Origin: Bacteroidaceae bacterium | GTDB taxonomy: Bacteria; Bacteroidota; Bacteroidia; Bacteroidales; Bacteroidaceae | Direction: 5' to 3' | NCBI GenBank assembly: GCA_017560125.1 | Contig: JAFYOS010000017.1 | Coordinates: 1 to 64,000, forward strand | Length of the DNA: 64,000 nt | Shown: in pieces, positions 14,030 to 33,108 of the stretch | How the letters are laid out: each line of letters opens with the position of its first letter | How positions within the stretch are numbered: position 1 is the stretch's first letter | Notes under the pieces: generated by a model | Told to the model about the DNA's origin: nothing | Databases searched by the model: none | The model's input: the letters and a program-made list of their open reading frames with translations, nothing else | Program-made: the position numbers and the translations under genes

Positions 14030-15754
14030 CTATAACATGCTTCCTAAAACGGTATCTCTAAACGCATTGAATATATTTAGTTTGACGTGCTTGTATGCTG
14101 GTAGACTTTCAAGATATTCAAGTTCGAAAACTATACGAGGGGCAGTATCCTTGCTATCTTTATTTATCTCTGCTTTATTTCCGATTCTAGCAACACGAAT
14201 AAGATACAAATCTTTTACGCCTTTACCCTTTATATATGGCATGAAATAGTATAGTTTATTCAATGCTATAGTAGAAGGGAACGCTTTAGTCTTTCCTGTA
14301 TAATAAATCTTAGTTGGCGCACCATCCAAGAAATAGTCTTGGTTGTCAGATTTTACCAAACCGACAAGCAGATGTTTGGCTGGGTCAAGAATATACGTCT
14401 TTTTAGGAGCATTTACGACTAGGTCTATATTCTCCTCTGCAAATAAATCGAACTTGAAGACTGGTTGTTTGTCGCGTTTTGTGTATATGGGATTTGAAGA
14501 AACAGGTCCCTCGCTATAGATTGCACGATATAGGCTCTTGCCGACTATCTCAACCACGCCACAAACGAGCGCATTACCCATCAAGAAAGCACGACGACCG
14601 TCTGACACTTCGGGGTGGAATGTATGATTGTCGGGAAACATATTCAGGCGTTCCAATTCGATAGGAATAAGTCTGCGATATCGCCCTGAAGTAGTTTTTA
14701 CAACGTGCTTAAAGCGTGATGGAGCAGCACCTCCCTCACCAGTAATGATAGTGCGAGAAGGTTTGTCAAGATAATCGGGGAAGGCCATTCCGCCCTCAGA
14801 GAAGACATATTCATAGCCATCTTTTGACACGCGATTAATTTTCTTAGCACCCTTCTCATATTGCCACTTGGGAAGTTCCTCATCAGAGATATAGAATTCT
14901 TCGGGCACAAATTCCTCATCGACCAAAATGTCGCCAAGGGTCTGGATGGGGCCATCGTACACAGCTGTCGAATCAACTGAAAGAATGTTGCGGTCAATCA
15001 TGATTCCTGCTGTACCGAATGGGCTATCCTTTTTGTCTTTATTGAAATTGTCAGAAACCTCTTTAATTGTGCCTTCTATCTCAAATTGCGAAACGGTAGT
15101 TTTCTTCTGCACGAAAGGGAACGACTTTGCCATCACACCATCGTAGAAAAGCCAATTGTTAGCATCCTCTACTTGGTTGGCAACCACTGAACCCTTGCGA
15201 TAACCAACTATGTAGGTTCTACGGCGTCTTTGAGGCATACCATAGTCGGCAGCATTGATAACACGCCACTCGATGATATAACCAAGGTCTGCCAATGAAG
15301 CCAAGATGATTGCAAAGTCGCGACCACGCTGAGTAGCAGGCGAATTGATAATTCGGTCTACATTCTCAAGAAATATATAGTTCGGGCGGTTCTCGCCCTT
15401 TTCTTCCAAAATTCTATATATTTGCCACCACAACACACCCTTCTTTCCCTCGATGCCTCCCGAGCGACTAAGAGTTGCTGCTACCGAATAGTCTTGGCAT
15501 GGGAAACCGCCTACCAACAAGTCATGGTCGGGGATTTCATTGGTGGGTACGGTACATATATCATTGTTTGAATGTCCTACACTACCAAATCTCGCTCTAT
15601 AGGCCAACGAAGCATCCTGATGCTTTGTCGATGGTTCCCACTGACTATTCCACACGGTTTGGTAAACATCTGACGCGCCTTCCAAACCGATGCGGAAACC
15701 ACCTACACCAGCAAATAGTTCAACTACACGAATTGTTTTATTTTGTTTGGACAT
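14030..15754 (-). CDS. DNA (cytosine-5-)-methyltransferase, Sau3AI-type
   Basis: Modifies cytosine at C5 and protects the host from the adjacent nuclease. Motif I VELFAGVGGFRIGL is at residues 11-24, the catalytic Cys86 sits in GGFPCQDYS, ENVDR (motif VI) is near 130, and NAADYGMPQRRRR is motif VIII. The C-terminal part holds the target domain, IELERLNMFPDNHT and MGNALVCGVVEIVG (motifs IX and X). At 574 residues it is long because of a C-terminal extension of about 160 residues. It starts one base after the stop of the nuclease gene. GATC is the likely target by family; this cannot be proven from sequence alone. Confidence 0.9.
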   Translation of the reverse strand: MSKQNKTIRVVELFAGVGGFRIGLEGASDVYQTVWNSQWEPSTKHQDASLAYRARFGSVGHSNNDICTVPTNEIPDHDLLVGGFPCQDYSVAATLSRSGGIEGKKGVLWWQIYRILEEKGENRPNYIFLENVDRIINSPATQRGRDFAIILASLADLGYIIEWRVINAADYGMPQRRRRTYIVGYRKGSVVANQVEDANNWLFYDGVMAKSFPFVQKKTTVSQFEIEGTIKEVSDNFNKDKKDSPFGTAGIMIDRNILSVDSTAVYDGPIQTLGDILVDEEFVPEEFYISDEELPKWQYEKGAKKINRVSKDGYEYVFSEGGMAFPDYLDKPSRTIITGEGGAAPSRFKHVVKTTSGRYRRLIPIELERLNMFPDNHTFHPEVSDGRRAFLMGNALVCGVVEIVGKSLYRAIYSEGPVSSNPIYTKRDKQPVFKFDLFAEENIDLVVNAPKKTYILDPAKHLLVGLVKSDNQDYFLDGAPTKIYYTGKTKAFPSTIALNKLYYFMPYIKGKGVKDLYLIRVARIGNKAEINKDSKDTAPRIVFELEYLESLPAYKHVKLNIFNAFRDTVLGSML

Positions 15755-15755
15755 T

Positions 15756-17321
15756 TTATATTGTTTGATTGTTAAACAAATCTATGGTTACACGTTTAGC
15801 TAACCATACTTCTTGAGGCAACATCCTCAATCCATTAATGACAAGCGTTTTGCTTGATTCACTTGAAGTTGATGCGCTTCCCCTCATGAAGACATCATAG
15901 TCGGCCTCTTTGGGGAAATTAGGAGCTTCTTTTTGAGTTCCTGATTTTGGATTGATTATAGGCGAACCATCAGCACGGTATTCTTTCACAATCTTCAGCC
16001 CATTATCTTTTACAAGTGAACGTACGTCTTCCCAAAACCTTCTCACGCTTGTTTCGATAAAGTTGTCAGTAAAATACACACGCTTAAAACCAACAAACTT
16101 AATACTTTCAGGACTCTTAATCTTGGAATCCGTATACTGATAAGCCATAAACAAGAATTGATGTTCTGCAAAGTAATCACGCAAAAAGGACTCATCAAAA
16201 TGTTCTTCATTTATCCATTCCTCAAAGTTTGGAGTAAACATCTTCATCGATTCCTTAGGAACGCCTTTGCTATTCAGAGGAAGGCTCTTGGCAATCAAAC
16301 CAATCTTTGCAAAATCCTCAATAGCATTCAACGACTTTGCTTTACTACCGAACATCTTGAGTACGACTAATTCCGCAAAGTTCTTATCTGTCATATAGTG
16401 AGATGTACCTTCTTTTGCCTTATCAGACCTCAAAGACACACCCAACCAATCGGCGATTTCTGCAAATGTCTTACCTCCATACATTGAGGTCAATTGCTTG
16501 CACTTCTCGTCGATATCTGAATACTTTGTAATAGGGGAAGCTAACTTTTCTAAATGTCTATTTGAAAAATACTGGTCAGCAATAATCGTCGCAAACGAGC
16601 GCTTCAAGCGGAAACGAGGGCTATGCGGAAACTTTGGAGCAGTATCAATCAACATCAATTGGCTACGGAGTTCGCTCGACAGACGAGGATATTGTGCATC
16701 ACGCTCCTTCTGTGTACTATACTCACGATGTATAACTATGAGAAAATCGCGTACAATCAGCCAATCTTGCTTCAGACGGAGTTTGTCATCTGCACTGAAT
16801 TCATAAAACTGAAATCCTAATACAGGGAAATTCTTATACCCATCCAATGCCACAGTTGTGGAAGAATTGTACCAATAGTACACCCATAACATATGAGCCA
16901 ACTTATGCCAAAAATTCGATGTTTCGAACTCCTCATTGATGATTACTGGAATAGACACCGCGGTAATGCTGACAGGTTCTTTACACTCATACACATAAGG
17001 CGAATCCTGTTTCTTAGGCTTAATCACGCCTGTTGTTTTCAACTCTACACGCACTCCATCAACCATTATATCGGGTTCTTGCTTGCAATCCTTATGACAA
17101 CCTAATACAGAAACCTCTATTACATCGCCGGCAATACCTGTAACCTTTGTATGACCTGCATGACTAGCGAACTGTCCTGAGGCATCTACCTCAAGTAGTG
17201 TCTTACCTATTGCAGCTGAAAGTAACTTCTCAACCCTTTCGCGTGTAAACACACGATTTGAAGGAGTATCAATTGGGATTTCGTTGGTCACTCTCAAATC
17301 TTGTATAGTATCGTTCTCCAT
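15756..17321 (-). CDS. Type II restriction endonuclease, Sau3AI/MutH family
   Basis: A 521-residue nuclease, the size of Sau3AI, with an N-terminal MutH-like catalytic domain and a C-terminal DNA-binding (allosteric) domain. The catalytic core is visible as GKTLLEVD near residue 39, AGDVIEVSVLGC near 64, then PDI (Asp84) followed by VELKTTGV with Glu93 and Lys95, the D-(x)n-ExK signature. Sau3AI cuts GATC. The nuclease gene comes first and the methylase second, with no controller gene visible. The pair is AT-rich compared with its flanks. Confidence 0.87.
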   Translation of the reverse strand: MENDTIQDLRVTNEIPIDTPSNRVFTRERVEKLLSAAIGKTLLEVDASGQFASHAGHTKVTGIAGDVIEVSVLGCHKDCKQEPDIMVDGVRVELKTTGVIKPKKQDSPYVYECKEPVSITAVSIPVIINEEFETSNFWHKLAHMLWVYYWYNSSTTVALDGYKNFPVLGFQFYEFSADDKLRLKQDWLIVRDFLIVIHREYSTQKERDAQYPRLSSELRSQLMLIDTAPKFPHSPRFRLKRSFATIIADQYFSNRHLEKLASPITKYSDIDEKCKQLTSMYGGKTFAEIADWLGVSLRSDKAKEGTSHYMTDKNFAELVVLKMFGSKAKSLNAIEDFAKIGLIAKSLPLNSKGVPKESMKMFTPNFEEWINEEHFDESFLRDYFAEHQFLFMAYQYTDSKIKSPESIKFVGFKRVYFTDNFIETSVRRFWEDVRSLVKDNGLKIVKEYRADGSPIINPKSGTQKEAPNFPKEADYDVFMRGSASTSSESSKTLVINGLRMLPQEVWLAKRVTIDLFNNQTI

Positions 17322-17602: not shown

Positions 17603-18490
17603 TTACTTACCATATGTCGCAGGAACGAAGGCTGCATCCAACAGGTAGTTGATGCTCACCTTTGCGCCGTCCATTGTGGTGCCTTTGCAACCTTCAATCT
17701 CCACGATGATGTCCTGAACGCCGGCGGTAGCTACGTTCTTGAAGATGGCGTCGAAGCCCACCATGCCGCTCTGGCCCACCTCGCGATGGTCTTTCACGTG
17801 CAGAAGCGCGAAGCGTCCGGGGTATTTCTCGAAGAACTCCACGGGCGATTTCTTGCCCATTACAGTCCAGTAGAGGTCGAGCTCATAGAATACCAATTCG
17901 GGGTCTGTGTTCTCTATCATGTACTCGAGCATCACGCGGTTCTCTACGTTTACCATCTCGTGTGAGTGGTTGTGGTAGCCATATTTCAAGCCGGCAGCGT
18001 TACACAATTTGCCAATCTCGTTGAAATAGTCGCAAGTAACCTTCAGCTCCTTGAGTGTAGCGGGACGGTTCAACCAGGGGTTAACGATGTATTTCATGCC
18101 AGCAGCCTTGTGGTCGGCGATAGCCTGTGCCCACCATTTGAGGCCTTCGCTGAAGTCGCCCGACTCAATCTCCTCGGCTGTCAGGTTTCTGTTGCAGTGC
18201 GAAGAAATTACCTTTATGCCATATTTCTCGGCTGTAGCCTTGAAATCCTCGGGCGCGTAGCCATAGAACTTGCCGCCGCCATATCCGGCTGCTTCTATTC
18301 CGGTGTAACCCATCTCGGCGAGTCCTTTGAAGATGGCGTCAAGGTTGTTGCCCGATCTTGCAATGGTGTCGCGGATAGAGTAGAGCTGTATAGATATTTC
18401 CTTTTTGGGTGCCGATGCCTTTTGGGCTGTTGTGCACGATGTGAATATTGCGCCGATGAGCAACAGGGCGCAGATGATGTTGCGTGTCAT
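17603..18490 (-). CDS. Sugar phosphate isomerase/epimerase-like TIM-barrel lipoprotein
   Basis: A 295-residue member of the xylose isomerase-like (AP endonuclease 2) TIM-barrel superfamily. Starting at MTRNIICALL gives a clean lipoprotein signal with Cys19 (IFTSC), so it acts on the periplasmic side. Likely metal-binding residues occur in ISSHCNRN, KYGYHNHSHEM, YELDLYWTVMG, LLHVKDHRE and the final IIVEIEG. It is the last gene after a DUF1080 lipoprotein and a Tat-exported Gfo/Idh/MocA protein. In the glycoside-oxidation route described for Bacteroides thetaiotaomicron (as I recall it), TIM-barrel proteins of this type act on the keto-sugar product. The role here is inference. Confidence 0.85.
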   Translation of the reverse strand: MTRNIICALLLIGAIFTSCTTAQKASAPKKEISIQLYSIRDTIARSGNNLDAIFKGLAEMGYTGIEAAGYGGGKFYGYAPEDFKATAEKYGIKVISSHCNRNLTAEEIESGDFSEGLKWWAQAIADHKAAGMKYIVNPWLNRPATLKELKVTCDYFNEIGKLCNAAGLKYGYHNHSHEMVNVENRVMLEYMIENTDPELVFYELDLYWTVMGKKSPVEFFEKYPGRFALLHVKDHREVGQSGMVGFDAIFKNVATAGVQDIIVEIEGCKGTTMDGAKVSINYLLDAAFVPATYGK

Positions 18491-18512
18491 TGTTTTGATC
18501 TCTCTATTTACA

Positions 18513-18550
18513 TAATTCGTTGGCAAACACGGATGCTTGCCAACGAATTA
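18513..18550 (-). repeat. Intercistronic hairpin
   Basis: TAATTCGTTGGCAA and TTGCCAACGAATTA form a perfect 14-bp stem around a 10-base loop. It lies between the DUF1080 and TIM-barrel genes and lacks a T tract, so it may tune mRNA stability or partial termination. Confidence 0.6.
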
Positions 18551-18569
18551 CACTATTCAACATTTTTTA

Positions 18570-19340
18570 TTATTCAAGAATCTTAACCTTGATGTTGCGG
18601 AACCATACATCGTCGCCGTGATCCTGGAAACCGATGTAACCCTCGCGTGCCTCGCCACCGCAGTTGTTAAGAAGTGCGAATGCATCGGGCCAACGCTCCT
18701 CAGAGAACTTAGATGCCTGAAGCATCTCTGTCCATTGGGGTGTCCACAAGTGGTACTCTACAACAGCCTCGTCGTTCTGATAGTGAACTACAGTGCCTTT
18801 GTAAACCATGATCTTAACCTTGTTCCACTCGCCAGCGGGCTTAGAGTTCTGGGGCTTAGCGGGAATCATGTCGTAGAGTGAAGATGACTGGCGGTTGCCG
18901 TCCTTACCCAATTTAGCATCGGGGTGGTTCTCGTTGTCAAGTACCTGGCACTCAGGTGCTGAAATGTAGATGGGTTTGCCGGGGAGCTCCTGTGCAAGAT
19001 AGAAGATACCAGAGTTACCACCCTTAGAGATCTTCCACTCGAGCTCGAGCTCGAAGTTTTTGAACTTCTGTGCAGCGAAGATGATGTCGCCGCCCTCGCC
19101 TGTCTGTGCCTCACCGCCACCTGAACCTGAGAATTTCAGGCAACCGTCCTCGATTGTCCAGCGTGAAGGAACGTGGTCTTTGTTATAACCTCTCCAACCG
19201 TCGAGGCTTGTACCGTCGAACAATACGATTGTGTTAGCGTCGTTGTCTGCTGCAGCCTGACCTGCTTTCTGTGAACCGCCGCATGATGCGATGATAGCGC
19301 ATGCCATAGCGCATGCTACTGTTTTGAATATTTTTTTCAT
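18570..19340 (-). CDS. DUF1080 (3-keto-glycoside hydrolase/lyase-like) lipoprotein
   Basis: A 256-residue lipoprotein with signal peptide and Cys20 (IIASC). The DUF1080 fold is seen from TIVLFDGTSLDGWRGY through FELELEWKISKGGNSGIFYL, APECQVLDN, PAGEWNKVKIMVYKG, and the closing GYIGFQDHGDDVWFRNIKVK. The two elements GNSGIFY and PECQVLDN are typical of family enzymes acting on 3-keto-glycosides. It follows an exported Gfo/Idh/MocA protein by 69 bases and precedes a TIM-barrel lipoprotein, an order that suggests oxidation at C3, cleavage, and processing of the product on the periplasmic side. Confidence 0.9.
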   Translation of the reverse strand: MKKIFKTVACAMACAIIASCGGSQKAGQAAADNDANTIVLFDGTSLDGWRGYNKDHVPSRWTIEDGCLKFSGSGGGEAQTGEGGDIIFAAQKFKNFELELEWKISKGGNSGIFYLAQELPGKPIYISAPECQVLDNENHPDAKLGKDGNRQSSSLYDMIPAKPQNSKPAGEWNKVKIMVYKGTVVHYQNDEAVVEYHLWTPQWTEMLQASKFSEERWPDAFALLNNCGGEAREGYIGFQDHGDDVWFRNIKVKILE

Positions 19341-19361
19341 TGTGTGTTGTATTAAATTTAT

Positions 19362-19392
19362 GCACTCTCCTACCCGTGGGGCAGGAGAGTGC
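19362..19392 (-). repeat. Intercistronic hairpin
   Basis: GCACTCTCCT and AGGAGAGTGC form a perfect 10-bp stem, with an inner CCC/GGG pairing, between the oxidoreductase and DUF1080 genes. No T tract follows, so it is probably an mRNA-processing or stability element. Confidence 0.55.
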
Positions 19393-19409
19393 TGTTAATA
19401 TGTTTCTAA

Positions 19410-20891
19410 TTAGAACTTGGGCATGTCGGGCAACTTCCAACCATCGCGGTAGGTGTGCTTGATGAGCTCCTGTGCAAATTCGTTTGCGTTAACAGGCTCT
19501 GTCCATGTCTTGTTGAATGTGGGGTGACCATCCTTGATGCTGAAACCGTCCTTGATGATTGAGCGGATTGTTGCATCCTCGGGGATGTTTGTGAAGCGCA
19601 TGTTCTCGCCGTCCCACTCGAGTACGCGGTTGAGTGACTGCAAACGTACTGCGAGTACACCCATAACAACCATTTCGTTGAAGGGACCTGCTACTGAGAA
19701 ATCCGACTCAGAGAGTACGCGGTTTTCGGGGCTCTCTTTACATGCACGAATCCAATCCTGCTGGTGCTTGTTCTCGCCCTTAATTTCGCGGCATACCTTG
19801 GGAGCGTTGGGCACGCGACCTGATACCAAGTAGGGGTTACGTCCGTAGCAACCGCAGATAAGAGTGTCTTTTGTACCGTAGAAGATAGCTGCACCACCTG
19901 CGTCGTTGAGGTTCTTGCCGGGAGCAAGGCCTGCGGGACGCTCGGGGAGAAGACCACCATCGTACCAATATACATCAACCTCGGGCATTGCAACCTTAGG
20001 CATGTTGTCGCGCTGGGGGAATGTATAGTGTACAAACTGTGCGTTGGGAGCAGACTCGTTGAGCAACATTGTTGAGCTACCCTCTACCTTTGTGGGGTAT
20101 TTAAGGTTCAAGCCCTTGAATACGGGGTGCAAGATGTGGCAAGCCATATCTCCGAGAGCACCTGTACCGAAGTCCCACCATCCACGCCAGTTCCAGGGAG
20201 TGTAGATTGAGTTGTAAGGACGCTCCTTGGCCGGGCCGATGAAGAGATCCCAATCCATTGTAGAGGGGACTTTCTCTCTCTTCTCGGGACGCTCAAGGCC
20301 CTGGGGCCAGATAGGACGGTCGGTGAATGTGTCAACGCGCTTGATCTCGCCGATCTCGCCGTTCCAGATCCACTCGCACACTTTGCGTACACCTTCGTCC
20401 GATGCACCCTGGTTACCCATCTGTGTAGCTACTTTGTATTTCTTTGCAAGGTTTGTCAGCAAACGTGACTCGTAAACTGAGTGTGTAAGGGGCTTCTCGC
20501 AATATACGTGCTTGCCTGCTACGATAGCCTCGGCAGCGATGATTGCGTGAGTGTGGTCGGCTGTTGCTACCATTACGGCATCAGCATCCTTCAACATCTC
20601 ATCGTACATCTTGCGATAGTCCTTGTATCTTTTAGCGTTGGGATAACGGTCGAATACGCCTTTAGCGTACTTCCAGTCGATATCGCAAAGACCGATAATG
20701 TTCTCAGTCTCGAGACCACGAAGCACTGATGCACCACGTCCGCCGACTCCGACACCTAAAATATTAAGTTTATCACTGGGAGCTGTATGTCCGAAATCTT
20801 TACCCAATACGGTATTAGGTACTACTGCAAGACCGATAGCTGCAGCTGCACCGTTCTGAAGGAACTTCCTTCTTGACATTCCGTTTGACAT
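19410..20891 (-). CDS. Tat-exported Gfo/Idh/MocA oxidoreductase
   Basis: A 493-residue NAD(P)-dependent oxidoreductase with a Tat signal (SRRKFLQNGAAAAIGLAVVPNTVLG), so it is folded with cofactor before export. The Rossmann motif GVGVGGRG is at residues 46-53 and the conserved EKP is at 132-134 (YCEKPLTHS); GNQGASDEG and HILHPVFKGL match the substrate domain. The closest relatives are the glycosyl-hydrolase-family-109-like or 3-keto-forming oxidoreductases of Bacteroidota. Residue ALGDMACH near the middle fits the bacterial-inositol/glycoside oxidising clade. It is 41 bases after tatA. How the periplasmic cofactor is reoxidised is not shown by the sequence. Confidence 0.92.
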   Translation of the reverse strand: MSNGMSRRKFLQNGAAAAIGLAVVPNTVLGKDFGHTAPSDKLNILGVGVGGRGASVLRGLETENIIGLCDIDWKYAKGVFDRYPNAKRYKDYRKMYDEMLKDADAVMVATADHTHAIIAAEAIVAGKHVYCEKPLTHSVYESRLLTNLAKKYKVATQMGNQGASDEGVRKVCEWIWNGEIGEIKRVDTFTDRPIWPQGLERPEKREKVPSTMDWDLFIGPAKERPYNSIYTPWNWRGWWDFGTGALGDMACHILHPVFKGLNLKYPTKVEGSSTMLLNESAPNAQFVHYTFPQRDNMPKVAMPEVDVYWYDGGLLPERPAGLAPGKNLNDAGGAAIFYGTKDTLICGCYGRNPYLVSGRVPNAPKVCREIKGENKHQQDWIRACKESPENRVLSESDFSVAGPFNEMVVMGVLAVRLQSLNRVLEWDGENMRFTNIPEDATIRSIIKDGFSIKDGHPTFNKTWTEPVNANEFAQELIKHTYRDGWKLPDMPKF

Positions 20892-24563: not shown

Positions 24564-25337
24564 TTAATATATATGTACGCTTGCTCCCTTGGCCGATGGC
24601 AGGAAATTTATACCCCACCAGCACATCTGCAACAGGATGAACGAAAAGACGAGCAGCGCAAACAGCGTGTTTGTGTCGCGGTTGGCGGGGCGCATGTGCA
24701 GATAGAGCAGATAGCTGAGCCATGTGGCCAGGGCCCATGTCTCTTTGGGGTCCCATGTCCAGTAGTCACCCCATGCCTCTTTGGCCCACAGGGCGCCCAT
24801 CACCATGCCAAGGGACAGGAAACTCCATCCGACGCGCACAAGGCTGTCGCAGACGCTCAGTTCCTTGTCGTTTGTAGGTGCTTTCCTGAACCATAGATAT
24901 AACGCGAAGAGCGTTGCGGCTCCCATCATGGCATACGAGAACATATATACTATCACATGCGGCACGAACCACGGGCTTTGCAGCGCCGGCATCAATGTGG
25001 TGCTGTGTATTTCGGGCTTGGCGATATTTATGCATGCAAACATGATTGACATGAACGAGCCGAAGGCGAGCATCCAGCTATATCTGTTCCGTGCATACAG
25101 GAATATTCCTATCACCGACAGGAAGAACGAGTACCATAGTCGTGTTTCGCCCATGGTGCGCAGTGGCGGGCGTTCGAGGCTTATCCACAGTTCTGCTATG
25201 AATGTGAGGAAGATTGCCGAGCCCACCGTCGATGCGGCGATGGCTCCGCCCCTGTTGCCGCGGAAGGCGAGCAGAGTGCCGGCCAGCCAGCATATTCCGG
25301 CTATTGCTGCGTATATGTAAAATGATTCCCAGTTCAT
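24564..25337 (-). CDS. ccsA: Cytochrome c biogenesis protein CcsA/ResC
   Basis: A 257-residue polytopic membrane protein of System II cytochrome c maturation, which carries haem to the outer side and attaches it to CxxCH motifs. The tryptophan-rich haem-handling signature WGDYWTWDPKETWAL is intact, with about eight membrane spans and conserved histidines (VPHVIVYM, LHMRP). It starts 4 bases after resB. Being last in an operon headed by a tetraheme cytochrome strongly suggests that it matures that cytochrome. Confidence 0.93.
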   Translation of the reverse strand: MNWESFYIYAAIAGICWLAGTLLAFRGNRGGAIAASTVGSAIFLTFIAELWISLERPPLRTMGETRLWYSFFLSVIGIFLYARNRYSWMLAFGSFMSIMFACINIAKPEIHSTTLMPALQSPWFVPHVIVYMFSYAMMGAATLFALYLWFRKAPTNDKELSVCDSLVRVGWSFLSLGMVMGALWAKEAWGDYWTWDPKETWALATWLSYLLYLHMRPANRDTNTLFALLVFSFILLQMCWWGINFLPSAKGASVHIY

Positions 25338-25341
25338 TGTG

Positions 25342-26529
25342 CTACTCCTTTCTTCTTGTGCCCATGATGAACATCATTGCTCCGGCTGCAAGTACCAGCC
25401 ACATGGCTGTTTGTACGATTCCGTACCAACCGTCTTTGACGCATTGCAGGATGCTTGTGGTGCTCCATTTGCCACGCGAATTATCGTATCCCGATTGATA
25501 GATGCGCCATGCTCCTATTTTTGCGGGCTTGTTGACGGCTATATCGTAGGTCTGCTTTTCGCCATCGCGCTCAATTTCTATCTTCGACAGGAATTTCTTT
25601 ATCTCTCTGCGTGGCATTATGAGCTCCTCGCCGTTGGGAAGGGGTAGGGTGGCGGCCGCGAATATGTGGCTGCCACAGCTTACCCATCCTTCGGCCGATT
25701 GCTTGCCGTCGGTGGCTTTTATGTAGGCTGCCGTTGTGGCCCCCACGTGGTTCATCTCTATGTATGCCGAGTCGTTGGGCTTGCGGCCGGCCATGTCGAT
25801 GTATTGGGTACACTTTATTTGCCACTGACCTATTTTGCCGTTGCTCTTTTCGCCCTCTATGGTCATGTACTCTTTCGATGGTGCGCCGCCCGAAACTATT
25901 TTTATCTGTGGCGGGTATTCATCGAGCGTGAACTCCTTGAGCCTGATGCTGAAGGGTAGCTCGGCTCGTGCGCCTTTATCGTCGATGCCTATACCTACGG
26001 GATAACCCTGTATGGCTGTGATGTCTATTTTGGTCTTGTCGCTACTGCCGAAGATTGCTGCAGTCAGTATGGTGAAGAAGGCTGCGTGTATTATCTTCGA
26101 TGGCAGGCGCCCTTTTTTAATATTCCTTATATCGTCTATGGCCTTTACTCCGGTGAGCGTGGTGAAGTGGAGCAGGAATATATTGAATATCCACGACGAT
26201 TTCATGTTGGTGAGGCCAAGGACGCCGAGCACGCCTGTCGTGGCTCCGTCCTGCGGTATCAATCCGAAAATAAGTGTAAGCACTAGCATCGATGCAAGCG
26301 ATGCCATGTACGACGGGCGTCCCGTGAACGAGGCCACCCATTTCCATCGTTCCTTGTAGAACGACAGCAGTATTACTATATATAGGTAGTTTATTGCCAG
26401 CACTGCTCCCCACGGATGGGCAAGCAGGGCGCTTGGCACCTCGCCTATAAATAGCTGTAACGCTGTACCCGCAAAGAACATGCGGGCACAGCGTTTTACT
26501 ATTGTTTTATAATGTAGCGGAAGCATCAT
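25342..26529 (-). CDS. resB: Cytochrome c biogenesis protein ResB
   Basis: The partner of CcsA in System II. About 395 residues: four membrane spans (two in residues 20-60, one near 75-95, one at the C-terminus, GYGIVQTAMWLVLAAGAMMFIMG region) with a large periplasmic domain between. GTALQLFIGEVPS, LIFGLIPQDG, HFTTLTGVKAIDDIRN and the late GAWRIYQSGYD with VLAAGAMMFIMG match ResB-like proteins. The start is set at the first ATG (MMLPLHY); the longer frame uses a TTG that overlaps the upstream gene. It lies 4 bases after that gene. Confidence 0.88.
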   Translation of the reverse strand: MMLPLHYKTIVKRCARMFFAGTALQLFIGEVPSALLAHPWGAVLAINYLYIVILLSFYKERWKWVASFTGRPSYMASLASMLVLTLIFGLIPQDGATTGVLGVLGLTNMKSSWIFNIFLLHFTTLTGVKAIDDIRNIKKGRLPSKIIHAAFFTILTAAIFGSSDKTKIDITAIQGYPVGIGIDDKGARAELPFSIRLKEFTLDEYPPQIKIVSGGAPSKEYMTIEGEKSNGKIGQWQIKCTQYIDMAGRKPNDSAYIEMNHVGATTAAYIKATDGKQSAEGWVSCGSHIFAAATLPLPNGEELIMPRREIKKFLSKIEIERDGEKQTYDIAVNKPAKIGAWRIYQSGYDNSRGKWSTTSILQCVKDGWYGIVQTAMWLVLAAGAMMFIMGTRRKE

Positions 26530-26533
26530 GTGG

Positions 26534-27442
26534 TTATGCAAGCTTCCATTGTGCGCGGATAAGCTCGACAGCAGCTTTCACGGTCTGCTCTCTCTCGCCC
26601 TTTGTGCCACATTCGAAGCTCACGTAGTGGGGGTACTCCAACTGCTTCAGTGCGCGGAATCCTTCAACGTAGTTGTCGAGCTCGCCATCCTCGCCGGGCA
26701 TGATGCGACGGCCACGGCTGGCGATGTGTACGTGCTGAAGGTAATCCTTGCCGGCTGCCATCAGGGCTGCGTAGTCCGATGTCTCCTCCTGCATGTGCCA
26801 GAAATCGCCCATGCACTTCACGCCTGCGCTCTTCGAGTCGCGGCAGATGGCTGCAGCGTCTGCTACCTGGCGCAGATAGTGTGCCTCGCCACGGTTCAGG
26901 GGCTCAAGGATTACTGTGGTGTTGTGCTTCAATGCAAATTCGCCCAGTTCGTGCATCTGCTCGCAAAGGTATTCGCGTGTCTCACGTGTGTGGGGCTTGC
27001 AGGGGTTCTGATGGTTGAATGCGGGTACCATGATTACACCTGTTGAACCGAGCTCGCCTGCTGCTGCGATGATGTCGCGCATGGTTGAATCGAATTCGGC
27101 TTTTACGCTCTCCTCCTCGGCAAGGATGAAGCCTCTGAAACCTGCACAGATGGCCGACACCTTGATGTTTCTGCCCGAAAGCGCCTGCTGTATCTCTTCT
27201 ACTCTGCTTGCGAGGTTGCCACCCCAGGGCTCAAAACCTACGATGCCCATGCTCTCCATGTAGTCGAGCTTTTCGCCGAGGTTTTTACCAGGTGCTGTTC
27301 CCTCCTGAAATGATATGCGGAGCTCGGTTGTGTTTTTCTCCTCTGCGCCTGCGCACGATGTGAGGATTGAGGCACCCGAGGCTGTTGCGGCTACTGTTGC
27401 AGCGCCACAAATTGAGCTTGTAAGGAATTGTCTTCTATTCAT
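26534..27442 (-). CDS. Tat-exported TIM-barrel sugar isomerase/epimerase-like lipoprotein
   Basis: A 302-residue xylose isomerase-like TIM-barrel protein with both a twin-arginine motif (NRRQFLT) and a lipobox (LTSC, Cys30), thus a Tat-translocated lipoprotein. The barrel has GIVGFEPWGGN, KVSAICAGFRGF, TVILEPLNRGE (a metal-binding Glu), GVKCMGDFWHMQEE, LQHVHIASRGRR and HYVSFECG with the last Glu. Tat export implies folding, probably with metal, in the cytoplasm. It lies 20 bases after the Gfo/Idh/MocA gene and just before resB. It differs from the other TIM-barrel lipoprotein of the window, which has a Sec-type signal. Confidence 0.88.
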   Translation of the reverse strand: MNRRQFLTSSICGAATVAATASGASILTSCAGAEEKNTTELRISFQEGTAPGKNLGEKLDYMESMGIVGFEPWGGNLASRVEEIQQALSGRNIKVSAICAGFRGFILAEEESVKAEFDSTMRDIIAAAGELGSTGVIMVPAFNHQNPCKPHTRETREYLCEQMHELGEFALKHNTTVILEPLNRGEAHYLRQVADAAAICRDSKSAGVKCMGDFWHMQEETSDYAALMAAGKDYLQHVHIASRGRRIMPGEDGELDNYVEGFRALKQLEYPHYVSFECGTKGEREQTVKAAVELIRAQWKLA

Positions 27443-27462
27443 AGTATAGTGTGTGTTTGTGA

Positions 27463-28815
27463 TTACTTACCGGGAGTCTCTATTTGGTATTCGGGCGCTG
27501 TCATGTCCACAGGACCGAGCTCAAGCTTCTCGGGCATGAGGTCGAGGTCCGATTTGGTGATTTCGTCCCATGTGATAGTGGTGCCTTTGTATGCCGACTC
27601 GCGTCCCATGATAGCTGCGAGACAAGAGATAGCGCACTCTGAAGCCTCTTCGTAGCCCTCGCCCTTGCGGATGTGGTTCACCCAGTCAACATGCTCAAGG
27701 ATGTAGGGGTTGTGCTGCTTGAACTCGGCGTTTGCCTTCTCCTCGTCGTATTTCCAGATTACATTGCCCTTGAGGTCTTTAATCTCCTTTGTTACGCTGT
27801 TCCAAGAACCCTTTGTTCCCTGGATGAACTCGCTGATGTTGCTGCTGCAACCGTCTATCTGGCGGCACATACTATGCAAGTGTACGCCGTTCTCCATTTC
27901 GAAGTCGATGCTGAAGTTGTCGTACTGGTCACCTGTTATGCGACGGTGGCGGCTACCGAAACCTGTAGCTTTGGCAATCTTGTAGCCCGACATCCAAAGG
28001 AATACGTCGATGTTGTGAACGTGCTGCTCAACGATGTGGTCGCCCGAAAGCCACTTCCAGTTAACCCAGTCGCGAATCATCCACTCCATGTCGCTCCAGC
28101 CCTGCTCGCGGTTTTTGTACCACAGCATGCTCTGGTTCCAATATACGTTACCGCCTGTAATCTCGCCAATGAGGCCGGCCTGAATCTGTTTGTATGCCTC
28201 TACATAGCAACGCTCGTGACGGCGCTGGATACCGGTAATGACGCTAAGGTTCTTGGCCTTTGCCTGCTTGGCTGCAGCCATCACTGTACGGTAGCCCTTG
28301 GGATCAACCGCGATTGGTTTCTCCATGAATGAGTGCTTGTTCTTCTGTGTAGCGTACTGGAAATGTACGGGGCGGAAATTGGGAGGTGTGGTCAGAATAA
28401 CCATATCGATACCTGCGTCGATTACCTTCTTGTAAGCGTCGAAGCCTACGAAGCAGTTCTCGGCGGGAACCTCCTGCTGGTATTGTGCTTTCAAGTGGTT
28501 GCGCACGCCCTCTACTTTCTCGGGGAATACGTCACCCAATGCCACTACCTTGATGTTGTTGGCTGCAGCCAATACATCCTGCACGGCACCACGACCGCGA
28601 CCACCGCAACCAACGAGGCCCACTTTGAGCTCTCTACCGTCGATAGCCTTGTCGGGGAGCTCGGGTACATAGAATTCTCCGGGCTGTTTCAGGGGAACCA
28701 ATTTCTCCTCTTTGTTACATGCTGCGAGAAGTGCCGATGCGCCTACTACGCTTCCTACACCAAGTATTGAAGATGCTTTCAAGAAGCCTCTTCTGTTCAT
28801 TTTCTCATTACTCAT
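27463..28815 (-). CDS. Tat-exported Gfo/Idh/MocA oxidoreductase lipoprotein
   Basis: A 450-residue oxidoreductase with a twin-arginine signal (NRRGFLKASSILGVG) that ends in a lipobox (LLAAC, Cys33), so it is probably tethered to the membrane after Tat export. The nucleotide-binding GLVGCGGRGRG is at 66-76 and FMEKPIAVDP at 164-173 (EKP 165-167). The sequence IVEQHVHNIDVFLWM holds conserved catalytic histidines. The fold suggests oxidation of a sugar hydroxyl with tightly bound NAD(P). Its place between a tetraheme cytochrome gene and a TIM-barrel gene is the basis for a proposed electron link. Confidence 0.92.
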   Translation of the reverse strand: MSNEKMNRRGFLKASSILGVGSVVGASALLAACNKEEKLVPLKQPGEFYVPELPDKAIDGRELKVGLVGCGGRGRGAVQDVLAAANNIKVVALGDVFPEKVEGVRNHLKAQYQQEVPAENCFVGFDAYKKVIDAGIDMVILTTPPNFRPVHFQYATQKNKHSFMEKPIAVDPKGYRTVMAAAKQAKAKNLSVITGIQRRHERCYVEAYKQIQAGLIGEITGGNVYWNQSMLWYKNREQGWSDMEWMIRDWVNWKWLSGDHIVEQHVHNIDVFLWMSGYKIAKATGFGSRHRRITGDQYDNFSIDFEMENGVHLHSMCRQIDGCSSNISEFIQGTKGSWNSVTKEIKDLKGNVIWKYDEEKANAEFKQHNPYILEHVDWVNHIRKGEGYEEASECAISCLAAIMGRESAYKGTTITWDEITKSDLDLMPEKLELGPVDMTAPEYQIETPGK

Positions 28816-28847
28816 AGTATAATATATTTGTATTAGTTTTATTTCGG

Positions 28848-30374
28848 TTATTTAATCTCCTCGGGTACTTCGCATACTACGCGGAAGCCGATGCCACGGA
28901 TATCAGAGTACCACCAGATGCTCTTGGGATTCTGCGGGTCGGTGCGCAACCACTCGTCGTGGCGGGTGTAGTCGCGTGCTGCGCAACGAAGGTCGGCCGC
29001 GTCGCTTGCATATGTACCTCCGCGCACCACAAATTCGTCGCCGCTGTCGGGGCCTTTGGGGTCCTTGTCGCCGTCGTTCAGCATGCTGTATGCATTCTCG
29101 TCGTAGCGGTCAGAGCAGTATTCCATTACGTTACCCAACATGTTTTTCAAGCCGAAGGGGTTGGCCAATACTTTGCTGGGCTCCTGTGAACGGTTCTTAC
29201 TATTGTTTGCGTAAATTACATAGCTGTTTATGCTTGTGGTGTCGGCTCCGAACATCTCGTTCCAGAAGCCACCGTTTGTATAGTCCTTGGGACTACCCTC
29301 GAAGAAGTAGGGGGTCGATGTGCCACCACGAACGGCGTACTCCCATTCGGCCTCGGTGGGCAGACGGTACTTCTTGCCGGTCTTCAGTGAGAGCCACTGG
29401 CAGAATGTCTCGGCTGCATAGTGTGTCATGGTGATGGCGGGACGGTCGCCCATTCCCCAGCCCTGGTCGGGTGAACCGAATGGCGGTGTGGGGCCGCTCA
29501 CTGCGTCAACGTCGGGGCTCGAATTGTTTTCGTAGATTACTGTGGGCGGTGTGCGACCTTCGGACATCGTCTCGGCGTAGAATGCCCAATACTGATCCCA
29601 TGTAATCTCCATTTCGCCCATGAAGAACGACGAAATTTCTATATTGCGCTGGGGTGCTTCGTTAGCCTTGTGGAAGGGCTCCGATTCGGGTGAACCCATG
29701 GTGAACGAACCGCCGGGGATGGCAATCATGCTGATAGACGCCGAGGTGCCGGGTACTGTCTCCACGAAGTTCTCGAATGCGGTAATCTGTGTAGCTGCGG
29801 GGTGTATCTCGCCACTGCTCTTGGGCGCTTCGGTCATGGCCGCGTGCTTGTAGTTGGGGTTGTAGTGGCCGGCGTCGAGGTGACAGCTGATACACTGCAA
29901 GCCAAGTTTCTCCTCGTTGTCGTCGTAGTAGAGGTGGGCTGTGACGCCATTGTCGCTGATGCCCTCGGGGTAGATATTTACGTGACAAGCCTTGCACGAT
30001 TCGTTGTAAACGATTTTTTGAGCATACTCGAGCTCGCCTTTGCTATCCCAATCGATATCCTCTTTGCTCTTGGTAAGATACGACCAAATGTCCTTTACAC
30101 CTGTTGTGATTTTGGCCTGTGTGTAGTCCCATGTGCCTTTGGGAGGCAGGTGGCAGGCTGCACAGTCGGTCTTTACGCCGCTTTTGCTGTTGTGGTGCAT
30201 AGACTGCTTCCAGCTCATCTCCGAGTCGGTGTGATAGTGACACGACATACACGAGTCGTTTGTCGAGCTCTTGTCCCAAATGGAATTGAATACCAGAATG
30301 AGAGAAAATACAAGTGCAATTCCTCCTAGTATAGCCAAGAAGATTATCTTCTTTTTGTTGCCTGAATTTGACAT
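28848..30374 (-). CDS. Tetraheme NapC/NirT-like cytochrome c fused to a SUMF1/FGE-like domain
   Basis: A 508-residue fusion. A membrane anchor (residues 10-31) is followed by four CxxCH haem sites (42-46, 71-75, 127-131, 161-165) in a NapC/NrfH-like arrangement; such proteins pass electrons between quinol and periplasmic redox partners. From about residue 215 to the end is a SUMF1/EgtB/PvdO-type domain (MIAIPGGSFTMGS, RNIEISSFFMGEMEIT, YRLPTEAEWEYAVRGG, GNVMEYCSDRY, FVVRGGTY, GIGFRVV). The domain lacks the paired cysteines near the end that copper-dependent formylglycine-generating enzymes need (it has ASDAADLRCAARDY), so it is unlikely to activate sulfatases. It heads an operon with two Tat lipoprotein enzymes and ResB/CcsA. 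Confidence 0.92.
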   Translation of the reverse strand: MSNSGNKKKIIFLAILGGIALVFSLILVFNSIWDKSSTNDSCMSCHYHTDSEMSWKQSMHHNSKSGVKTDCAACHLPPKGTWDYTQAKITTGVKDIWSYLTKSKEDIDWDSKGELEYAQKIVYNESCKACHVNIYPEGISDNGVTAHLYYDDNEEKLGLQCISCHLDAGHYNPNYKHAAMTEAPKSSGEIHPAATQITAFENFVETVPGTSASISMIAIPGGSFTMGSPESEPFHKANEAPQRNIEISSFFMGEMEITWDQYWAFYAETMSEGRTPPTVIYENNSSPDVDAVSGPTPPFGSPDQGWGMGDRPAITMTHYAAETFCQWLSLKTGKKYRLPTEAEWEYAVRGGTSTPYFFEGSPKDYTNGGFWNEMFGADTTSINSYVIYANNSKNRSQEPSKVLANPFGLKNMLGNVMEYCSDRYDENAYSMLNDGDKDPKGPDSGDEFVVRGGTYASDAADLRCAARDYTRHDEWLRTDPQNPKSIWWYSDIRGIGFRVVCEVPEEIK

Positions 30375-30642: not shown

Positions 30643-33108
30643 ATGAAAACTTATTTGAAATTTTTCTTGGCAGCAGTGATGGCCTTGTCATTCACCGCAT
30701 TGCATGCTCAGAAAGAGATTACGGTTGCTTTGGGCGACTCCGTTACATTTACCTCCACAAACGAGGGTATCAAGTATGCGTGGTCACTTTCGACAGATGG
30801 TAAAACCTTCTACACAATCCCCGATGCAACGGAACGCACTCTGAAGGTGCGCGTTTTTGGTGAGAACTACTATCGTGTGAGATGGACTAACGCCGACAAC
30901 AAATCGACCTACGCCGATACGGTGAAGGTGGTTATGCCTGCCTACAACTACGCCCTCAAGAACTACAGCGTTACAGCCGGTCAGGGTTATGTAGAGGTTG
31001 ACGGCAAGGATGGCAGCGGTATCTCCATCCCTTACCAGAAGACAATCGAGGGCAATAGCAACAAGTTGGGTGTCACCGAGAAGCTCACCAATTGGTCTAA
31101 TGCCAATGCCCATGCAGCCTACTTCATAAATACTCCTGCAGGTATTGTAAACCTCAAAATGAATGTGACATTCCGCAAGAACTGCATGGCGCAGTTCCGC
31201 ATGCGTGTCTATGACACAGATACCCCCGATTCGCTCATTGCCGAGAATATAATCAGCTTCAATGGTACAGGCGAGCCCATAGAGATACCTGTAATCACAT
31301 TCAAGCTAGGCAAGCCCGGTTACCACAAGTACGACCTTGAGTGTATTCGCGGAAATACCAACGTCGAGAGCATCAACAAGTGGATTTTCGACCTGGAACA
31401 GAACGTGGAGCCCTTCTCGCCCACCATTCTGATGTCGCCCTCAATCCACATCATGGGCTGGACAAGTAGCAACCCCAAGCTCCCCTCGGGCGACGCTTTC
31501 GATTGGGCATACGAGGAGGTTAAAATCCCCGGTGGCGACAGCATTGTGAATGCTATTTATGTGATGTCGCTTGGTGTGCTTGCCGGTTACATGGGTATTC
31601 AGGTAGGTGCCGACGGTGCTCACCGTACAGTGCTCTTCTCGCAGTGGGATTCGGGTGATACCGATACAGATCCCAACCTCCCCGACCACCTCCGTTCTAC
31701 AGCGGTGGATACCGGCGATGGTGTCATTGCACAGCGCTTCGGTGGCGAGGGTACAGGTGTGCAGTCGTTCCGCAACAACGGTGCATTCTGGGATTTTAAT
31801 AAATATGTACAGTTCATCACACACTGCCGCAACGAGCTTGCCACATACGAAACCGTCGAGAACGGTAAGACCGTGACCAAGCAGCAGCGCAACATGCTTA
31901 TATCGGCATGGTGGAATGCTCAGGACGAAAAGGGATGGCAGTATATGTCAACCCTTCGTGTGGCAAACAGAAGTACATTTATCGATTCATGGTACTCGTT
32001 TGTTGAGTGCTATGTGAATGGCAATGGTCAGCGCAAGCGCATCGGTTACTTTAGAAACGGATATGCGAAGGCAAGAAAAGAGCAAGGTGGCAAGTGGTTC
32101 CACATGAACAAGGCATCGTTCGGCCACAACAACGGTGGAACCCACATGGGTGCTCGCAACGACATATGGCAGGATGTCGATCCCGAGGATAAATTTGCAT
32201 GGTTGATGATAACCGGTGGTTTCACCAACAAGGCTCACATCGGTACATGCCAGGTTCCTATGCGTACAACCCACACACCCGTCGATACCATCAACCTCGA
32301 CCTGTTGTTGGCACGCGAGGAGCTCGCATTCGAGAACGAAAGACGTCGCCTCGATTCAATCAGTGCTATGAACGCAGCCATGTATGACAAGAGCGACTGG
32401 GAGCTTCTTTCGTTCACAAGCGAAGAGAAGACCGGCGAGGGTACAAACGGTTTCGCCAAGCTGATTATCGACAACGACAAGGAGACATACTGGCATTCGC
32501 AGTGGAAGAGCTCTACAGCCAAGGTGCCTCATACATTTGTTATCGACATGAAGCAGGAGCTCGATATCAATGCATTCTATTTTGCAATGAGCGGTGGCGA
32601 GGCTCGCTTCCAGCAGGATATTACCATCCAGGGTAGTCTTGATAACGAAAATTGGACTACCATCTACGAGAACAACGACTGTCCCAAGCCCGTAACAGGC
32701 AAGAGCACAGGCGAGTATGTACTCAATATGGACTCGACAGCTACTGCACGCTACCTGAAACTGACCATCAACAAGGTACATACAGGTGTTAATTTCGCCC
32801 GTATCAACGAATTCTCGGTATTGAAGCTCGAAGTACCCACATTGATAGAGGATTTGAAGGCCGACAAGAAGGTTCGTTTCTATACCAAGGGTGCAAGCAT
32901 CTGCGTAGATGCTCCCTGCAACATGGCGAGCGCCAAGGTATCGGTATATTCAGCCGACGGCCAGATTGTTACAAGCTGTGTAACCGAGGATGTTACCGCC
33001 AACGATGTTATCAGCGTTCACTCGTTCAGCATTGTTCCCGGTATATACGTTGTAACCCTCGAGGATGCCACAGGCAAGACCTACACCGGCAAGGTTGCTG
33101 TGAAATAG
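30643..33108 (+). CDS. Secreted DUF3472 protein with discoidin domain and possible type IX secretion tail
   Basis: An 821-residue exported protein with signal MKTYLKFFLAAVMALSFTALHA. After an Ig-like start come a DUF5077-type segment (about 95-270; AAYFINTPAGIVNLKMNV), a DUF3472 domain (about 275-520; GYMGIQVGADGAHRTVLFSQWD, FGHNNGGTHMG), a coiled linker, an F5/8 type C (discoidin) domain (about 580-730; KLIIDNDKETYWHSQW, ARYLKLTI) that usually binds glycans, and a C-terminal beta domain (KVSVYSADGQIV, GIYVVTLEDATGKTYTGKVAVK) like type IX secretion sorting domains. The enzymatic activity is not known. It is divergent from the cytochrome operon and ends in a strong terminator. Confidence 0.85.
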   Translation: MKTYLKFFLAAVMALSFTALHAQKEITVALGDSVTFTSTNEGIKYAWSLSTDGKTFYTIPDATERTLKVRVFGENYYRVRWTNADNKSTYADTVKVVMPAYNYALKNYSVTAGQGYVEVDGKDGSGISIPYQKTIEGNSNKLGVTEKLTNWSNANAHAAYFINTPAGIVNLKMNVTFRKNCMAQFRMRVYDTDTPDSLIAENIISFNGTGEPIEIPVITFKLGKPGYHKYDLECIRGNTNVESINKWIFDLEQNVEPFSPTILMSPSIHIMGWTSSNPKLPSGDAFDWAYEEVKIPGGDSIVNAIYVMSLGVLAGYMGIQVGADGAHRTVLFSQWDSGDTDTDPNLPDHLRSTAVDTGDGVIAQRFGGEGTGVQSFRNNGAFWDFNKYVQFITHCRNELATYETVENGKTVTKQQRNMLISAWWNAQDEKGWQYMSTLRVANRSTFIDSWYSFVECYVNGNGQRKRIGYFRNGYAKARKEQGGKWFHMNKASFGHNNGGTHMGARNDIWQDVDPEDKFAWLMITGGFTNKAHIGTCQVPMRTTHTPVDTINLDLLLAREELAFENERRRLDSISAMNAAMYDKSDWELLSFTSEEKTGEGTNGFAKLIIDNDKETYWHSQWKSSTAKVPHTFVIDMKQELDINAFYFAMSGGEARFQQDITIQGSLDNENWTTIYENNDCPKPVTGKSTGEYVLNMDSTATARYLKLTINKVHTGVNFARINEFSVLKLEVPTLIEDLKADKKVRFYTKGASICVDAPCNMASAKVSVYSADGQIVTSCVTEDVTANDVISVHSFSIVPGIYVVTLEDATGKTYTGKVAVK

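Follow-up and report, generated by a model that had tools for sequence, protein, structure and literature searches.

The window analyzed here is a stretch of 64,000 nucleotides (positions 1 to 64,000 of contig JAFYOS010000017.1, assembly GCA_017560125.1) from a Bacteroidaceae bacterium. This report concerns a block of five genes at positions 24564–30374, the first two of which encode a tetraheme cytochrome fused to a SUMF1-like domain and an oxidoreductase of the Gfo/Idh/MocA family. All five genes are found on the minus strand, with intergenic gaps of 32 bases between genes 1 and 2 (28816–28847), 20 bases between genes 2 and 3 (27443–27462), 4 bases between genes 3 and 4, and 4 bases between genes 4 and 5 (25338–25341). 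The third gap applies if gene 4 begins at the ATG at 26529; the start assigned mechanically, a TTG at 26541, overlaps the end of gene 3. A first-pass annotation of this DNA had described five co-directional minus-strand genes with gaps of 4 to 32 bases, encoding a NapC-like cytochrome with a SUMF1-like domain, a Gfo/Idh/MocA protein, a TIM barrel, ResB, and CcsA. The coordinates bear out this arrangement, and the Pfam assignments agree with the identities of the genes. The source assembly comprises 2.6 Mb in 37 contigs and is 98.5% complete and 6.4% contaminated.

The five genes and their predicted products

Gene 1 (28848–30374) was found to encode an N-terminal membrane anchor, a NapC/NrfH-like tetraheme domain (residues 6–173; Pfam PF03264, NapC/NirT, E-value of 4e-25, 88.9 bits against a cut-off of 24.1), and a SUMF1-like domain that resembles the formylglycine-generating enzyme, FGE (residues 214–468; Pfam PF03781, FGE-sulfatase, E-value of 7e-39). 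Structure prediction places the N-terminal helix at residues 7–35. The four CxxCH motifs (C42, C71, C127, and C161) are invariant in 18 of 18 aligned sequences. The motif at heme 1 is CxxCHxH in all 18 of these fusion sequences, compared with CxxCHxM in 17 of 17 NapC/NirT proteins from this order that were taken as NrfH-like by their length, approximately 200 residues. The methionine of CxxCHxM has a ligand role in NrfH, and with CxxCHxH at heme 1 the redox potential may therefore differ from that of NrfH. Judged by its motifs, the gene 1 cytochrome is not an ordinary NrfH. Gene 1 is the sole NapC/NirT match of its own genome and no match to NrfA (PF02335) was found there; a role as part of a nitrite reductase was rejected for these reasons. 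NapC/NirT matches as such are common: 62 of the 119 genomes compared from the order have one or more. Frames of approximately 500 residues with partial NapC/NirT matches at about positions 5–99 (for example, G117:C243 and G046:C88) occur in several genomes of the order and may represent another type of cytochrome.

The SUMF1-like domain matches the FGE structure 6s07 with an E-value of 5e-18, and the Foldseek matches are PvdO, which is the best, and FGE. PvdO carries the NCBIfam name dihydropyoverdine dehydrogenase. The active-site cysteine pair of FGE constitutes the copper site of that enzyme. The cysteines of the FGE sequence MCHRSYC align to a gap and an alanine in gene 1, and an FGE-type pair was found in none of the 18 aligned fusion sequences. 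The assignment of the domain as a formylglycine-generating enzyme was rejected because gene 1 lacks this pair. The subfamily is characterized by the motifs DA-x-x-x-(P/A)-(T/S) and DPQxPKSxW; the sequence of gene 1 at the DA loop is DAVSGPTPP. Two loops (residues 271–301 and 476–491) are conserved in the subfamily, have low model confidence, and are a possible surface for a partner.

Gene 2 (27463–28815; Pfam PF01408/PF22725) encodes a Gfo/Idh/MocA oxidoreductase. The structural model (pLDDT 87) has the fold of this family, and the closest folds are those of DgpA, sulfoquinovosidase, and levoglucosan dehydrogenase, which are sugar C3-oxidizing and related enzymes. The Rossmann glycines G69 and G71, K166 (of the sequence EKP), and H267 and D270 (of HxxD) are invariant in alignments of 20 and 23 sequences. 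Also invariant in both alignments is D95, located where strand 2 ends, and an aspartate there would be expected to favor NAD over NADP. Membership of the BT_2158 family was rejected (25 bits against the NF058561 cut-off of 750). There is no close paralogue of gene 2 in its own genome, where the next match has an E-value of 3e-7.

Gene 3 (26534–27442) encodes a xylose-isomerase-like TIM barrel (Pfam PF01261, E-value of 1e-30) whose scores are 389 bits against 3kws and 92 against 6wn6, annotated as '3-keto-D-glucoside 4-epimerase', which we take to be YcjR. E180, D213, H239, and E277 are invariant in five of five sequences and are presumably the metal ligands of YcjR-like epimerases. From this relation and the conserved Glu-Asp-His-Glu set, gene 3 fits the YcjR-like 3-keto-glucoside epimerases, and epimerization is its putative activity. 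The sequences of genes 2 and 3 both begin with signals of the twin-arginine translocation (Tat) type, read as an N-terminal arginine pair, a hydrophobic stretch, and a lipobox-like cysteine (LLAAC in gene 2, at Cys33; ILTSC in gene 3). A TatC-like gene was noted by eye at 12412–13194 (minus strand); at least three proteins with arginine-pair signals are encoded in this window as well.

Gene 4 (25342–26529 from the ATG start) encodes ResB of system II heme attachment (Pfam PF05140, E-value of 7e-10, above the cut-off). Gene 5 (24564–25337) encodes a heme lyase subunit of the CcsA/CcsB type that contains the sequence WGDYWTWDPKE (Pfam PF01578, E-value of 1e-30, above the cut-off; NCBIfam TIGR03144, 131 bits, below the cut-off of 187.6). 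The two proteins by which system II cytochrome c maturation is recognized, ResB and a CcsA-type protein, are thus both encoded. A second CcsA of the same genome lies on contig C34 beside a ResB-like frame and a gene that resembles MauG and diheme enzymes (L055, 2490–5655), so that a second heme-attachment pair adjoins a second c-type cytochrome. The ResB-like frame is a reading of the sequence with no NCBIfam match, the MauG-like gene falls below the NCBIfam cut-offs, and this short contig may be foreign DNA.

Conservation of the gene pair and of the SUMF1-like partner

Full-length relatives of gene 1 were found, at 49–65% identity, in 18 of 148 other genomes in a sample of the order, in which the remaining matches are mostly isolated SUMF1 domains. 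In a sample of the family, 11 of 150 other genomes have a full-length relative. In total 37 further fusion loci were compared (loci are given below as L numbers): 19 from the order sample, in which one genome has two, 11 from the family sample, and seven from named records, namely Bacteroidales SUG1207 and metagenome-assembled genomes of Tannerella (two), Sunxiuqinia (one), Bacteroidia (two), and Bacteroidetes (one). The same species may be present twice, as an unnamed and a named record, and the lineages are possibly fewer than 37. Within the sampled genomes the NapC-type fusion was found in the Bacteroidota only.

Gene 2 lies directly downstream of gene 1 in 35 of the 37 loci; L038 and L042 differ in that the gene 2 relative is located approximately 4 and 9 kb away. 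An orthologue of gene 3 follows in 18 of the 37 (L036–L040, L056–L058, and 10 of the 11 family loci), and L158 ends at a contig edge. ResB and/or CcsA adjoin the pair in just three: L148, L150, which is cut by the end of its contig, and L056, where the two are fused in one protein of 730 residues. The conserved unit is gene 1 followed by gene 2. Conservation of all five genes as an operon, the check that the first-pass annotation had proposed across Bacteroidota and Planctomycetota, did not hold; the cytochrome and the oxidoreductase are kept together across the Bacteroidota loci, and the sampled Planctomycetota loci have a SUMF1-like protein with a Gfo/Idh/MocA gene and lack the tetraheme cytochrome. 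With no close paralogue of gene 2, a sole NapC/NirT match, and adjacency in 35 of 37 loci, the link between genes 1 and 2 is more than chance.

The SUMF1-like domain was followed further by scanning with the gene 1 alignment and the patterns RLPTEAEW and TDPQxPKSxW, and the best 80 of 508 relatives, among the matches listed, were retained; a shared DPQxPKS motif therefore partly reflects this selection. The set consists of fusions (L056–L062), 33 better-scoring standalone loci (L063–L095, E-values up to 5e-33), and 40 weaker loci (L096–L135, E-values of 2e-31 or worse). The 33 better-scoring loci come from Planctomycetota, Verrucomicrobiota, Flavobacteriia, Sphingobacteriia, Chitinophagia, and others. 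A Gfo/Idh/MocA gene follows the SUMF1 gene on the same strand, with no tetraheme domain present, in 20 of these 33 and in one of the 40 weaker loci, L099, which the division by score places in the lower set despite its having this gene. L063 was counted as positive though its Gfo/Idh/MocA gene is cut (91 bits), and L066, which ends at the SUMF1 gene, was counted as a miss. The oxidoreductase is a weak relative in L068 (29%), where an ApbE gene stands between the two, and in L069 (32–33%). Six loci (L064, L071, L074, L075, L079, and L080; by Pfam for L064) also have, close to the pair, a TIM-barrel gene of another branch.

The tree distances of the SUMF1 domains and the Gfo/Idh/MocA proteins correlate with an r of 0.86 over 45 pairs (the best of 2000 permutations reached 0.26), part of which shared descent explains. 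The correlation is 0.81 within the fusion loci (26 pairs) and 0.66 within the standalone loci (19 pairs; best permutation 0.57). The Tat-type arginine pair is present in the oxidoreductases of 58 of 58 loci. The lipobox cysteine is present in all 38 fusion loci, the present one included, compared with one of the 20 others (L087). The oxidoreductase is therefore lipid-anchored wherever the SUMF1-like domain is anchored through its cytochrome. This association tracks lineage and may have arisen in a single event.

The redox parts that accompany the SUMF1-like domain were found to vary. In five Verrucomicrobiota loci (L065, L072, L073, L083, and L086) it is joined, by Pfam, to PSCyt1 heme domains, and among these a Gfo/Idh/MocA gene adjoins in L073 only. 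ApbE is a flavin transferase of extracytoplasmic electron transfer that acts at the target motif S/T-G-A-S/T. Of the 33 better-scoring loci, 12 have an ApbE gene no more than two genes from SUMF1. Among the 40 weaker loci an ApbE gene anywhere in the locus was found in two (L099 and L100), and among the 37 fusion loci in none. ApbE stands beside SUMF1, with or without the oxidoreductase, in L067, L068, L070, L071, L080, L082, L083, L085, L086, L087, L092, L094, and L099; the identity of ApbE was confirmed by Pfam in seven loci, and that in L087 comes from tblastn. In L070 and L092, SUMF1 and ApbE are separated by a YceI gene. No flavinylation target was recognized among the inspected neighbors in these loci. 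Among the aligned standalone SUMF1 proteins an exact SGAT (DAVSGATTP, at approximately residues 105–120) was found in L064 and L066 only, both from Flavobacteriia, and no ApbE gene was found in the stretch examined around either. Most ApbE loci have RPT or RPS at this place, and gene 1 does not match the ApbE motif.

By these comparisons the SUMF1-like domain, to which the first-pass annotation had assigned no role, is the partner shared across phyla. We consider it very probable that the SUMF1-like protein and this type of oxidoreductase form a functional partnership. The partnership is likely one of electron transfer, because unrelated redox parts are fused to, or stand beside, the SUMF1-like protein.

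A probable 3-keto-glycoside module near the locus

Three minus-strand genes that are probably linked to the block lie 3.7 kb downstream of it (17603–20891). They encode a glycoside 3-dehydrogenase of the BT_2158 family with a Tat-type signal (19410–20891; NCBIfam NF058561, 907 bits against a cut-off of 750), a 3-keto-disaccharide hydrolase (18570–19340; Pfam PF06439, E-value of 6e-52), and a BT2156-like TIM-barrel isomerase or epimerase (17603–18526; Pfam PF01261, E-value of 3e-16). The module has the same kinds of genes as BT2156–BT2158 in a published table (PMC10434189), and BT2158 is described as a periplasmic glycoside 3-dehydrogenase (PMC11300592). In L148 a BT_2158-type gene and a 3-keto-disaccharide hydrolase gene are located upstream of gene 1, one gene away, and ThuA genes are near the gene pair in five loci; ThuA or BT2158-type neighbors are thus found in a minority of the other loci. 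The putative link to 3-keto-glycosides, drawn through the YcjR-like TIM barrel and this module, and the possible role of the SUMF1-like domain across phyla are additions to what had been annotated before.

Regulatory genes were also noted in the neighborhood of related loci. A gene for a regulator of the hemerythrin and LuxR type stands beside the cytochrome locus in L056 (5892–6836, minus strand, by Pfam), similar genes were identified by similarity in L057 and L058, and a LuxR-type gene comes after the TIM-barrel gene in L036.

Proposed function and alternatives

The earlier proposal that the Gfo/Idh/MocA enzyme is exported and has a cytochrome as its partner is supported. We tentatively read genes 1–3 as encoding an exported, membrane-tethered, NAD-retaining glycoside dehydrogenase that oxidizes C3 and is drained to quinone, and we hold this reading with slightly less than even confidence. 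Gene 2 would fold around NAD in the cytoplasm, leave through the Tat system with the cofactor trapped, and be tethered as a lipoprotein. It would oxidize a ring hydroxyl, most likely that at C3, of a glycoside or sugar and would bind the SUMF1-like domain of gene 1. Electrons would pass from gene 2 through the four hemes of gene 1 to menaquinone in the membrane, and the bound NADH would thereby be reset to NAD. Gene 3 may rearrange the keto product by epimerase-type chemistry, ResB and CcsA would attach the hemes, in this genome beside their client, and the unit would aid the BT2156–BT2158-type pathway encoded 3.7 kb away. Of this scheme, the genes and their domains, the export signals in the sequence, the conserved pairing, and the gene context are observed, and we infer the binding, the retention of NAD, the substrate, the direction of electron flow, and the conversion of hydride to single electrons.

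Several points weigh against this scheme. The step from hydride to heme is its weakest link, and no cofactor was found for it; hydride transfer from NADH to heme is not facile unless a switch from two electrons to one intervenes, and genes 1 and 2 showed no recognizable flavin site. The characterized NapC-type cytochromes mostly oxidize quinol, which is the opposite direction, and the NAD-dependent sulfoquinovosidases, GFOR, and GH109 are redox-neutral relatives of gene 2 that use no acceptor. The model of the gene 1 heme domain is poor (pLDDT below 50 over most of residues 106–183), and for this reason neither a heme geometry nor a quinone site is claimed. At a threshold of 1e-60, gene 1 was found in none of eight sampled genomes of the same genus, and it is therefore an accessory gene here. 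Only a minority of loci have the 3-keto module nearby. Of the 33 standalone loci that score better, 13 have no Gfo/Idh/MocA gene beside SUMF1, including four of the five PSCyt1 fusions, and shared descent confounds the correlation of the trees. L083 and L086 carry both PSCyt1 and ApbE, and the carriers therefore do not simply replace each other.

It is conceivable that the electrons flow in reverse, with gene 1 taking them from menaquinol and re-reducing the nucleotide of gene 2, which would then reduce a keto sugar, for example the 3-keto-glucose released by the neighboring hydrolase; the unit would be a keto-sugar reductase and an electron sink under anaerobic conditions. Known members of the NapC/NirT family mostly feed periplasmic reductases, as NrfH and NapC do, a source of 3-keto sugar is encoded 3.7 kb away, and the regulator of the hemerythrin and LuxR type in L056, with similar genes in L057 and L058, might be expected of respiratory control. 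However, with menaquinol at approximately −0.07 V and the couple of a secondary alcohol at approximately −0.2 V, this transfer would be uphill unless the product is removed. The invariant CxxCHxH at heme 1 also suggests a potential that may differ from that of NrfH, and the PSCyt1 and ApbE neighbors elsewhere do not suggest quinol donation. We regard this direction as unlikely. It is rather unlikely that the SUMF1-like domain, or gene 1 as a whole, is a scaffold or a sugar-binding lid for the oxidoreductase, with no electron transfer between the two and with hemes that serve another partner. Such a role is consistent with the match to SUMF1 relatives such as PorK, a protein with a structural role, and with the 13 standalone loci that have no adjoining oxidoreductase, but it does not account for the joining of two unrelated heme domains to SUMF1 or for ApbE beside SUMF1 where the tetraheme domain is absent.

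Gene 2 could also be a redox-neutral glycosidase or epimerase that retains its NAD, as do GH109, the sulfoquinovosidase, and GFOR, with gene 1 merely rescuing enzyme trapped in the NADH form. Rescue hardly accounts for the linkage in 35 of 37 loci and the repeated joining of heme domains, and the redox-neutral relatives manage without such a partner; we judge this explanation improbable. A formylglycine-generating function of the SUMF1-like domain, with heme used instead of O2 and with an incidental pairing with the oxidoreductase, agrees with the similarity to 6s07 and with the Foldseek matches to PvdO and FGE. It is extremely improbable given that the cysteine pair is missing from gene 1 and the 18 aligned fusion sequences and that the conserved neighbor is a Gfo/Idh/MocA gene and not a sulfatase. 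A more speculative version of the electron-transfer reading makes the SUMF1-like fold itself the redox hub, in which a relay would take hydride from the trapped NADH and give single electrons to a lineage-specific carrier, either fused to the fold or encoded next to it. The carriers would be the tetraheme NapC domain in Bacteroidales, PSCyt1 in Verrucomicrobiota, and flavoprotein chains in Flavobacteriia, Sphingobacteriia, and Planctomycetota. One candidate for the relay is flavin mononucleotide, which ApbE would attach close to the conserved DA-x-x-x-(P/A)-(T/S) loop; a different cofactor is also conceivable. We consider both the hub and this assignment of carriers doubtful and quite improbable; if true, they would offer a general means by which NAD-dependent dehydrogenases operate outside of the cytoplasm.

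The scheme of an exported glycoside dehydrogenase drained to quinone can be compared with systems already described. YcjS and YcjR of E. coli likewise combine a glucoside 3-dehydrogenase of the Gfo/Idh type with a 3-keto-glucoside 4-epimerase, but these proteins are cytoplasmic and use free NAD, whereas genes 2 and 3 bear export signals. LacABC is composed of a GMC-type flavoprotein and cytochrome subunits, in contrast to the nucleotide-binding oxidoreductase and SUMF1-tetraheme partner encoded here. As a lactose 3-dehydrogenase found with a DUF1080 hydrolase, LacABC resembles the proposed system in the oxidation of glycosides at C3 in the periplasm by a membrane-bound dehydrogenase (PMC9007349). 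BT2156–BT2158 of Bacteroides thetaiotaomicron share an exported Gfo/Idh/MocA dehydrogenase and a TIM-barrel partner that act on glycosides. They differ in that gene 2 is outside of the BT_2158 family, and the passages cited above mention no cytochrome or SUMF1 protein with the cluster. The Bacteroides nrf operon, BT1414–18, has its own ResB and CcsA genes for heme attachment (PMC10434189), and NrfH and NapC share with gene 1 a tetraheme domain with an N-terminal anchor. The present locus differs from these in the lack of an NrfA match in the genome, in CxxCHxH instead of CxxCHxM, and in the fused SUMF1 domain. PvdO and FGE share the SUMF1 fold, PvdO being the best Foldseek match, and gene 1 differs in lacking the FGE cysteine pair, in its own subfamily motifs, and in its fusion to heme domains. 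No description of a SUMF1-NapC fusion or of a SUMF1-Gfo pair was found in the open-licence literature, subscription papers being mostly outside of the search, and this agrees with the earlier remark that no system with this gene set was known.

The nucleotide of a Gfo/Idh/MocA enzyme cannot be exchanged outside of the cytoplasm and, to our knowledge, it is not settled how the exported members of this family are reset after a net oxidation. A conserved partner that is fused to heme domains or stands beside a flavin transferase is a concrete and testable answer. If it is correct, periplasmic sugar oxidation would be a respiratory reaction in anaerobic Bacteroidales, and one branch of the SUMF1 fold, labeled as formylglycine-generating enzyme in profile libraries, would gain a suggested role.

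Other genes in the window were noted in passing. The divergent gene beside gene 1 (30643–33108, plus strand) encodes a protein of 821 residues with DUF3472 and F5/8 type C domains. The genome has a single ApbE gene, which lies elsewhere. By eye, a gene for a C5 DNA methyltransferase-like protein of 574 residues, with a gene for 521 residues just upstream (14030–17321, minus strand), resembles a restriction-modification pair, and the G+C content is lower there.

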